Shown here: piece after piece, positions 20,977 through 23,120 of the stretch
Numbering within the stretch: the first letter of the stretch is position 1
Layout: the number at the start of each line of letters is the position of its first letter
Assembly (NCBI RefSeq): GCF_023703775.1
Contig: NZ_CP098514.1
Coordinates: 1,674,001 to 1,738,000 of the forward strand
DNA from: Haloplanus sp. GDY1
GTDB taxonomy: Archaea; Halobacteriota; Halobacteria; Halobacteriales; Haloferacaceae
Reading direction: 5' to 3'
Length of the DNA: 64,000 nucleotides
Made by a program: the position numbers and the translations under genes
Notes under the pieces: model-generated
Databases searched by the model: none
What the model was told of the DNA's origin: nothing
Seen by the model: only the letters and a program-made list of their open reading frames with translations

Positions 20977-22146
20977 CTACCGGATCACGTCGACGCCGTT
21001 GCGCTGGTCGACCTGATCGCGACCGCCGTCGGACCAGGACGCCTGATCCTGGCCGACGTTCTCGCTGGCGTCGAATTCCGAAACGTCCTCGCCGTTGAGA
21101 CTGCGGCGGGACTTCTCCGCCTGCCGCTGGGTGGAGGGGCCGAGTACCTGGGCGCTCTGGACGCCGGTCATGATGGCCATGACCCGCACCTTGCCCTTGT
21201 ACTCCTCCTGAATGCGGGCGCCCCAGATGACGTTGGCGCTCGCCTCCAGTCGCTCGGTGATGTTGTTGGCGATGCCCTCGGCCTCCTTCAGCGTGAGGTC
21301 GGGACCGCCGGTGATGTGGACGAGTCCCCCGGACGCACCGCGGTAGTCGACGTCGAGAAGCGGGTGGTTCATCGCGTCGCTCACCACCTCCTGGGTCTTG
21401 TTCTTGTCCTGGGTCTCGCCCACGAGCATCACCGCGACGCCGCCCTGGTTCATGATCGTGGACATGTCCGCGTAGTCCAGGTTGATGAGCGAGGGCTGGG
21501 TGATGGTCTCGCTGATCCCCTTGACGGTCTCGGCGATGATCTGGTCCATCACCGAGAACGCCTTGCCGATGGGCAGGTTGGGCACGTAATCCAGCAGGCG
21601 GTTGTTGTCGAGGACGATGATCGAGTCGGCCTCACCGCGAAGCTTCTCGAGTCCCTCCTCGGCCTTGACCGTGCGGGCGCGCTCGACGTTGAACGGCGTC
21701 GACACCATGCCGACGACGATGGCGCCCTGCTCTTTCGCGATCTTGGAGACGACGGGCGCGGCACCGGTCCCGGTGCCGCCCCCCATGCCCGCGGTGACGA
21801 ACACGAGGTCGGCCTCGCCGAGGACCTCCTTGATCGTCCCCTGGGCCATCTCGGTCGCTCGCTCCCCCATCGAGGGGTCGCCGCCGGCGCCCAGCCCCTG
21901 CGTGAGCGACTTGCCGACGAGGATCTTCGTGTCGGCCTCGATCATCTGCAGGTGCTGTTTGTCGGTGTTGATCGCGACCGTCTCGGCGCCGTCGACGCCG
22001 ATGTTGTACAGACGATTGACCGTGTTGTTGCCGGCGCCGCCGGCGCCGACGATGACGATCCGCGGATCGCCGAAGTCGTCGCCCTCGTCGGCGTCGCGCT
22101 GTTCGGCCTCCTCGCGCTCGATGGCGTCCTGGACGAATCCCTGCAT
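20977..22146 (-). CDS. ftsZ2: Cell division protein FtsZ2
   Basis: Tubulin-like GTPase that polymerises at midcell; haloarchaea have two division FtsZs, and FtsZ2 drives ring constriction. Visible motifs: [14 protein letters not shown] near 32, the tubulin signature [12 protein letters not shown] and the T7-loop segment LDYADM. The C-terminal tail after about 350 is acidic and disordered. It is called FtsZ2 because cdrS lies directly upstream, the arrangement known from Halobacterium and Haloferax. ATG 22146 (MQGFVQDA) is preferred; a GTG at 22152 would overlap the cdrS stop as GTGA. Transcription from the cdrS promoter is expected. Confidence 0.95.
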
Positions 22147-22148
22147 CG

Positions 22149-22331
22149 TCACACCTTCGCCCAGCTGCGGTTGCGGTTGCGGTTGTCGTCACGGGACTCG
22201 CTTTGCTCGTTGAGCATCTCGCGGACTGCCGAGCGGATGGCCTCGCTTCGGTTCGGGAACTCTCCCGTCTCGACCATCTGTTCGACCTCCTCGATCTGCT
22301 GCTTCGGAATTCGTAGTGTCACACGCTCCAT
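22149..22331 (-). CDS. cdrS: Short ribbon-helix-helix regulator CdrS
   Basis: A 60-residue regulator: the RHH domain occupies residues 1-45 ([18 protein letters not shown] then [12 protein letters not shown]), followed by a short polar tail. In Halobacterium CdrS is known to control ftsZ2 and cell division, and cdrS and ftsZ2 are cotranscribed. The stop overlaps the possible GTG of ftsZ2, showing translational coupling. The start at 22331 is fixed by the RHH N terminus; longer in-frame translation would run through the promoter. Transcription likely begins about 120 bases upstream, leaving a long leader with two GTAAGAC-type sites. Confidence 0.93.
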
Positions 22332-22346
22332 GTTTGCATTCCCCCG

Positions 22347-22353
22347 GTAAGAC
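22347..22353 (+). promoter_or_regulatory. GTAAGAC site 1 in the cdrS leader
   Basis: Single GTAAGAC element in the direct orientation, 16 bases upstream of the cdrS ATG, inside the predicted untranslated leader. One of five such elements in this 211-base region. Confidence 0.5.
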
Positions 22354-22377
22354 GGAAGGGGCAGCACCCCGCATACT

Positions 22378-22384
22378 GTCTTAC
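22378..22384 (-). promoter_or_regulatory. GTAAGAC site 2 in the cdrS leader
   Basis: Inverted element (GTCTTAC on the plus strand, within TGTCTTACA), about 50 bases upstream of the cdrS ATG. Faces site 1 across 24 bases. Confidence 0.5.
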
Positions 22385-22433
22385 AGGCCGAAACCGCCCG
22401 ACGGAGGCGTGCTACCTCCAGGGCGACCAGCTT

Positions 22434-22451
22434 GTAAGACGACCGTCTTAC
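22434..22451. promoter_or_regulatory. Palindromic operator at the cdrS transcription start (sites 3 and 4)
   Basis: Perfect inverted repeat: GTAAGACG, two bases AC, then CGTCTTAC. Its centre lies about 38 bases downstream of the TATA core at 22477-22484 in the direction of cdrS, so it starts at the expected transcription start. Arm length and spacing suit a dimeric ribbon-helix-helix protein such as CdrL or CdrS. Seen directly; function inferred. Confidence 0.65.
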
Positions 22452-22475
22452 GCGGACGTACCAACAGACCAATAC

Positions 22476-22485
22476 CTTATAAAAC
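22476..22485 (-). promoter_or_regulatory. TATA box of the cdrS-ftsZ2 operon
   Basis: Reverse-strand TTTATAAGG core in an otherwise G+C-rich region, the best TATA match between cdrL and cdrS. Predicts transcription from about 22452-22456. Confidence 0.6.
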
Positions 22486-22496
22486 TAACGGCCGGT

Positions 22497-22503
22497 GTAA
22501 GAC
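22497..22503 (+). promoter_or_regulatory. GTAAGAC site 5 upstream of the cdrS TATA box
   Basis: Element TGTAAGACG just upstream of the TATA/BRE region; together with the operator it brackets the core promoter. Confidence 0.5.
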
Positions 22504-22542: not shown

Positions 22543-23061
22543 TTACGCACGGTCCAACACGTCCGCAGCGGGAGTTCGTCGGCCACAGCTCGGACAGAAC
22601 GCCCAGTCCGAACGGATCTCGTCGCCGCAGTCGCAGAACACGCGGTGGGCACCCTTCTCACCGCAGTTCGGGCAGTAAACGTGTCCAGAGGACATCTCCT
22701 CGCCACATTGGGAACACGTTTTACTCGGCGTTTTCGCCTCGTCCGCCGCGTTTTCACGGGGTGTCTTACGCGTCGTCGGCTCCGGCTCGCTCTCGACGGA
22801 CACGTCCGACGAATCGACGGCTTCGCCGTCGAGCGTGACGTTTACGTTGATATCCGGCGGGTCGGGGCGCGCAAACGCGCGCTCGGTGAGCACCCGTTCC
22901 AGCAGGTCGAGGTGTCGCGCGTCGCCGCCGCTGCCGCCCTCACGCTCCGCGTCGTCGAGGTACGTGCGCAACGCGTCGCGCATCACCTCGCTCTTGGAGG
23001 CGTCGAACTCCTCCAGGCGCTCGACGAGGTCGTCGTCGGCGCGGAACGTGATCTTGCTCAT
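22543..23061 (-). CDS. cdrL: Long ribbon-helix-helix regulator CdrL with two zinc ribbons
   Basis: A 172-residue DNA-binding protein. The N-terminal RHH domain (1-40, SKITFRADDDLVERLEEF) is followed by an acidic linker and two C-terminal zinc ribbons: CSQC/CPNC (116-133) and CDC/CPSC (143-159). In Haloferax and Halobacterium the long partner CdrL regulates the downstream cdrS-ftsZ2 genes. It is separated from cdrS by a 211-base promoter region rich in GTAAGAC sites, and one further copy (22763-22769) lies inside this gene. Confidence 0.88.
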   Translation of the reverse strand: MSKITFRADDDLVERLEEFDASKSEVMRDALRTYLDDAEREGGSGGDARHLDLLERVLTERAFARPDPPDINVNVTLDGEAVDSSDVSVESEPEPTTRKTPRENAADEAKTPSKTCSQCGEEMSSGHVYCPNCGEKGAHRVFCDCGDEIRSDWAFCPSCGRRTPAADVLDRA

Positions 23062-23120
23062 CGTTCACGCACACGTCCCCGGGTTATTTCAAACCTTCGT
23101 GCGTGTCTGACGGCCGTCTG

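Follow-up and report, generated by a model that had tools for sequence, protein, structure and literature searches.

A conserved array of GTAAGAC words at the haloarchaeal cdrS-ftsZ2 promoter, probable operator of RHH division regulators

The short gap upstream of the cell-division operon cdrS-ftsZ2 in Haloplanus sp. GDY1 holds five copies of the seven-base word GTAAGAC (or its complement GTCTTAC), two of which form a perfect inverted pair where transcription is predicted to start; the upstream gene cdrL contains a sixth. This array is very probably a docking site for CdrL and/or CdrS, small regulators that set division-gene expression. The reading that we favour, and hold to be reasonably likely, is that the RHH regulators of the locus use the words as an operator array, with CdrL as the main reader here and CdrS probably a reader too, and that the array likely limits cdrS-ftsZ2 expression. 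It draws on the array itself, its conservation, its constraint at the DNA level, its position and its near-uniqueness, all observed here, and on the published finding of CdrL on the cdrS-ftsZ2 promoter only.

Results

The array in the cdrL-cdrS gap

Coordinates are positions in the window, the whole stretch of 64,000 nucleotides that was analysed, and cdrS-ftsZ2 is transcribed from its minus strand. A preliminary description had placed five words in the 211-base gap between cdrL and cdrS, and all of them are where it put them, at 22347 (+), 22378 (-), 22434 (+), 22445 (-) and 22497 (+); it had missed the sixth, at 22763-22769 (-). Along the direction of transcription the locus begins with cdrL (22543-23061, minus strand), which encodes an RHH domain (residues 4-36) and a double zinc ribbon (residues 116-160) and carries the sixth word about 313 bases upstream of the predicted start. 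Site 5 (22497-22503, plus strand, near -47) lies directly upstream of the TATA/BRE region, whose TATA box occupies 22476-22483 (CTTATAAA; on the minus, transcribed strand, TTTATAAG). Next comes the core pair of sites 3 and 4, GTAAGAC-N4-GTCTTAC (22434-22451, reading GTAAGACGACCGTCTTAC), exactly as previously described. The TATA spacing predicts transcription to start at about 22453, at the edge of this pair. Site 2 (22378-22384, minus strand, near +73) and site 1 (22347-22353, plus strand) are leader words, the latter adjoining a GGGGGA purine stretch ahead of the cdrS ATG at 22331. The gene cdrS (22149-22331, minus strand) encodes a 60-residue RHH protein, and ftsZ2 (20977-22146, minus strand) lies immediately 3' of it.

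Pfam searches bore out the assignment of both regulators to the RHH proteins, with RHH_1 matches for CdrS (E 4.6e-9) and CdrL (E 5.5e-6, plus DZR at E 5e-8 and a weak CdrL_M match), and identified FtsZ2 (Tubulin, E 6.5e-44; FtsZ_C, E 1.2e-35). In a search of solved structures, CdrS matched a CopG/Arc/MetJ antidote and NikR, and no close relative of CdrL was found.

Such clustering is not expected of this word, which had been claimed to occur by chance far less than once per gap: the genome of 3,435,985 bases has 33 copies, or 0.0015 expected per 157 bp, giving a Poisson P of about 6e-17 for five. Among all 7-mers of the window, GTAAGAC makes the most surprising 160-bp cluster for its own frequency, so that choosing the word after the fact does not explain it. 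Genome frequency and this comparison together rule out a chance or low-complexity word. The exact core pair occurs once in the genome.

The sole copy of the core pair with one mismatch elsewhere in the genome (G000:C1:2075449-2075466, locus L002) lies directly ahead of an RHH antitoxin-like gene, whose RHH match is weak (E 7e-4, slightly under the curated cut-off). That gene is followed by a gene with the appearance of a RelE/ParE-type toxin and no Pfam match, and a second Haloplanus (L289) has the same arrangement. This copy is probably the operator of the antitoxin/toxin-like pair itself, and another RHH protein may use a nearly identical operator.

Conservation across the Halobacteria

We searched 391 genomes of the class Halobacteria with the CdrL protein, of which 380 gave a match, some through the zinc ribbon only. 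From whole genomes and from genome records with names, including Haloplanus, Haloferax, Halorubrum, Natronomonas, Haloarcula and Haladaptatus, we extracted 150 loci. GTAAGAC words were present in all 150 loci; their absence from orthologous promoters had been named beforehand as a ground for discarding the operator. Independently of CdrL, the pattern GTAAGAC-N2-6-GTCTTAC was found in 383 of the 391 genomes, and exactly once in 380, which matches a regulator with a single ChIP target, as CdrL is. Among the eight genomes lacking the pair, four have a one-base variant, two a set of GTATGAC/GTAAGAC words, and two (G230 and G342) no detectable cdrS-ftsZ2 locus or ftsZ2 in the assembly, so that these last are uninformative on loss of the pair. 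Since relatedness makes the genomes non-independent, we give conservation as counts, without probabilities. One genome has another exact core pair (G239:C1:32069-32086, L284), near unidentified genes on a contig other than that of the division locus.

In every locus examined the core pair lies directly 3' of the TATA box, and alignment of 141 distinct loci bearing an exact pair places a T/A-rich block, TTTTATA, at -33 to -27 from it. The upstream word stands at -51 to -53 from the core pair or, in other genomes, is replaced by a copy in the opposite orientation at -62 to -65; most loci have a leader word at +52 to +57 and another 20-33 bases 5' of the ATG. Site 1 is exact in 128 of the 141 CdrL-bearing loci. 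The variants of words 2 and 5 cluster at central positions (GTATGAC, GTAAAAC), as expected of a dyad with outer half-sites, and the 7-bp unit recurs in both orientations, singly and paired, in the manner of an omega-like RHH heptad. From start to start, the arms of the pair are spaced by 11 bp in 121 loci, 12 in 15, 13 in two, 10 in one and 9 in two. Spacings from 9 to 13 bp, confined to a few families, would be odd for a rigid tetramer and count against the favoured explanation.

Since the pair would lie at the extreme 5' end of the message and could form a 7-bp stem, it might instead be a stem-loop that controls stability or translation of the cdrS-ftsZ2 mRNA. The arms are invariant, with no compensatory change; where one arm is mutated, three of four cases give a stem mismatch and one leaves a G-U. 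Moreover, the message would not include the upstream and in-gene copies, conservation extends to single words that have no partner, and no Rfam family matches. With neither compensatory changes nor an Rfam family to its credit, we rejected the RNA element as very improbable.

Constraint on the copy inside cdrL

The sixth word spans codons CGT AAG AC- for Arg-Lys-Thr in the variable linker of CdrL. Among 143 distinct cdrL genes, 111 GTAAGAC copies were observed, against 21 after synonymous-codon shuffling (at most 32 in 500 shuffles). Arginine is encoded by CGT in all 117 Arg-Lys-Thr triplets of the linker, while CGT makes up about 20% of arginine codons in cdrL genes, and in 11 further in-gene copies Ser, Gly or Cys replaces Arg with the DNA word unchanged. 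Codon use and residue changes rule out a protein motif: the in-gene word is constrained at the DNA level. In the predicted model of CdrL, which is poor as a whole, linker residues 78-112 have pLDDT below 50. In 11 loci of other families (among them L116-L119, L121, L122, L125, L137, L140 and L141), the cdrL stop codon is itself embedded in the word (G-TAA-GAC). Taken with the constraint at the DNA level, these overlaps indicate that the operator reaches into the upstream gene.

Looping, with the in-gene copy and the core pair at a fixed helical phase, found no support; the distances between them are mostly 279-357 bp and show no helical phase once repeated distances are removed. The in-gene word might act as a roadblock for polymerase on its way through cdrL.

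Genomes without CdrL

The gene cdrL had been described in all Halobacteria; 11 haloarchaeal genomes, several of them single-contig, have the locus and no CdrL detectable by protein or profile search, with a different neighbour upstream of cdrS (L155-L160, L163, L165-L168). A CdrL hidden elsewhere in these genomes was discarded, as profile search returned zinc-ribbon or unrelated RHH proteins only, mostly at E about 1e-3. The core pair and site 1 are exact in all 11, and in two of them (L167 and L168), whose leaders are just 46% identical, the entire core pair is common to both. The pair is thus not restricted to CdrL-bearing genomes, and CdrL cannot be its only reader; a second reader, CdrS or some other protein, is probable. 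The outer words behave differently: the upstream word is exact in two of 11 CdrL-less loci versus 90 of 141 CdrL-bearing ones (Fisher P 0.007), and site 2 in one of 11 versus 95 of 141 (Fisher P 0.0002), both values being uncorrected for phylogeny. The lower share of exact words in loci lacking CdrL supports a link to CdrL. Several losses of CdrL appear to be recent, since other species of the genus still have CdrL, and decay of the words may lag behind.

Retention of the pair without CdrL would also suit a third, unidentified DNA-binding protein that reads GTAAGAC independently of CdrL. We consider this improbable, given the published CdrL peak on the cdrS-ftsZ2 promoter, the RHH-type 11-bp geometry, and a locus tied to no other regulator gene. 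Most simply, the core pair can probably be held by CdrS, which besides CdrL is the one regulator tied to the locus.

CdrL and CdrS as candidate readers

Control of the cdrS-ftsZ2 operon by CdrL is already known. In ChIP-seq of Hbt. salinarum over two growth phases, the cdrS-ftsZ2 promoter was the sole reproducible genome-wide target of CdrL; the paper reports the peak without a binding word, the term 'motif' being absent from its main text, and the cdrL deletion described there carried second-site mutations (PMC7439475). The array lies upstream of cdrS-ftsZ2 at this published target, the ChIP peak being of less than base-level resolution (PMC7439475), and CdrL is the best candidate reader, as we predict. 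For CdrS, ChIP-seq in Haloferax volcanii gave 18 sites, the cdrS promoter not among them (PMC8406309). The CdrS used was N-terminally FLAG-tagged and expressed from a plasmid (PMC8406309), so that a missed site at the cdrS promoter is conceivable.

These data divide the earlier proposal of an autoregulatory RHH operator. The evidence supports an operator of RHH type at this promoter, conserved in orthologues, but not its autoregulatory part: cdrL's own promoter (23062-23120) has no copy, the one copy being in its coding sequence, CdrL ChIP points to the cdrS promoter (PMC7439475), and the CdrS list lacks that promoter (PMC8406309). CdrS may nonetheless regulate itself, since the pair persists where CdrL is missing and the cdrS leaders of methanogens carry a CdrS-type array with an 11-bp pitch.

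A related word at CdrS-type sites and in methanogen leaders

We reconstructed a CdrS word, GTCNGAC, from sequence rather than from the published logo. GTCTGAC-N4-GTCTGAC or near variants precede ftsZ1 in several genera, and Haloferax massiliensis has five exact GTCNGAC-N4-GTCNGAC sites, one ahead of hisB and one ahead of ftsZ1, both published CdrS ChIP targets (PMC8406309). Two exact sites in this species lie ahead of a DUF7093 gene and a PUA-domain gene (L270, L271), which are possible further CdrS targets.

Methanogens and other relatives in the same phylum lack CdrL (PMC7439475). Their cdrS leaders (L235-L254) hold up to six GTCNGAC words in a row at an exact 11-bp pitch, with words separated by 11, 22, 33, 44 and 55 bp and almost none between; pairs at 11 bp number 37, against 0.025 in shuffled leaders. 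The window words read GTAAGAC in place of the twofold GTCNGAC of CdrS-type sites, and the 11-bp pitch is common to both. GTCNGAC gives way to GTAAGAC on the lineage with cdrL, the class Halobacteria. Judged by sequence, the 11-bp array in the cdrS leader would be the oldest arrangement, and an ancient CdrS-type operator apparently switched to GTAAGAC in the cdrL-bearing lineage.

This history lends itself to another explanation, in which the methanogen-type GTCNGAC array gave rise to an autorepression operator with CdrS as its main reader, and CdrL merely modulates. It accommodates the 11 CdrL-less genomes that keep the core pair and site 1, the ancestral 11-bp array in outgroup leaders, and the GAC half of each word, which is the CdrS-type half-site. 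We nevertheless think it unlikely, as none of the 18 Hfx. volcanii CdrS sites is at cdrS (PMC8406309), haloarchaeal CdrS-type sites are GTCNGAC rather than GTAAGAC, and a single site per genome mismatches a protein with 18 targets.

Discussion

The explanation that we favour, CdrL as main reader of an RHH operator array, suggests a simple mechanism. Each 7-bp word, GTA-N-GAC, would be an imperfect dyad (half-sites, GTA and GTC) that docks one RHH dimer. Two dimers could occupy the core pair cooperatively, spanning the transcription start, with additional dimers at the upstream, leader and in-gene words. CdrL would be the main reader in this genome, and the core pair probably readable by CdrS as well. 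Occupancy of the start site would block initiation and most likely limit cdrS-ftsZ2 expression. Three elements of this mechanism are inferred: that each word takes a single dimer, by analogy with the omega repressor (PMC9499535), which protein reads the words, and that the effect is repression. An RHH operator is further supported by the fixed placement and spacing of the words with respect to TATA box and ATG, by the RHH domains of both CdrL and CdrS, by the one-mismatch pair ahead of another RHH-like gene, and by the related GTCNGAC arrays in methanogen leaders and sites before ftsZ1 and hisB.

A more speculative version, to which we give the same limited credence as to CdrS as main reader, has GTA-N-GAC read jointly by CdrL and CdrS, as a mixed dimer or in competition: a CdrS autorepression array would have been taken over once cdrL arrived upstream, and the operator extended into the cdrL coding sequence. 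If true, the regulator gene itself would carry part of the operator for the regulator's only target.

How archaea control the levels of their division proteins is poorly known, and the array offers a candidate operator defined to the exact base and mutable in model haloarchaea. It separates CdrL-linked from CdrL-independent words, predicts the CdrS word and an ancestral methanogen array, and provides an example of a regulatory site maintained within a coding sequence over much of a class. In the literature searched, outside which lay most subscription journals and all preprints, we found no mention of the operator words or of how nearly universal they are, nor of the in-gene copy, a core independent of CdrL or the change from GTCNGAC to GTAAGAC.

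The operators of Arc and MetJ place a pair of RHH dimers roughly one helical turn from each other, and the MetJ box has an AGAC half-site; these are bacterial or phage regulators of unrelated genes. Closer in its words is the omega (ParB) repressor of plasmid pSM19035, each RHH dimer of which binds one non-palindromic 7-bp word, cooperatively and in either orientation, at sites overlapping promoters (PMC9499535). The likeness lies in 7-bp words, direct or inverted, that overlap the promoter, but omega words are contiguous whereas those here are 11-bp spaced or scattered, and omega serves plasmid partition rather than cell division. The CdrS motif of Haloferax volcanii belongs to an RHH protein and is a symmetric motif of two parts, and in its reconstructed form, GTCNGAC-N4-GTCNGAC, has the same geometry of 7 plus 4 bp; it differs in having GTC where one half here has GTA, in its genes, and in its position, which is upstream of promoters and not across the start (PMC8406309). 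With the CdrL region of Halobacterium salinarum the promoter and genes are identical (PMC7439475), and to it the present analysis adds the words, the site within the gene and conservation throughout the class.
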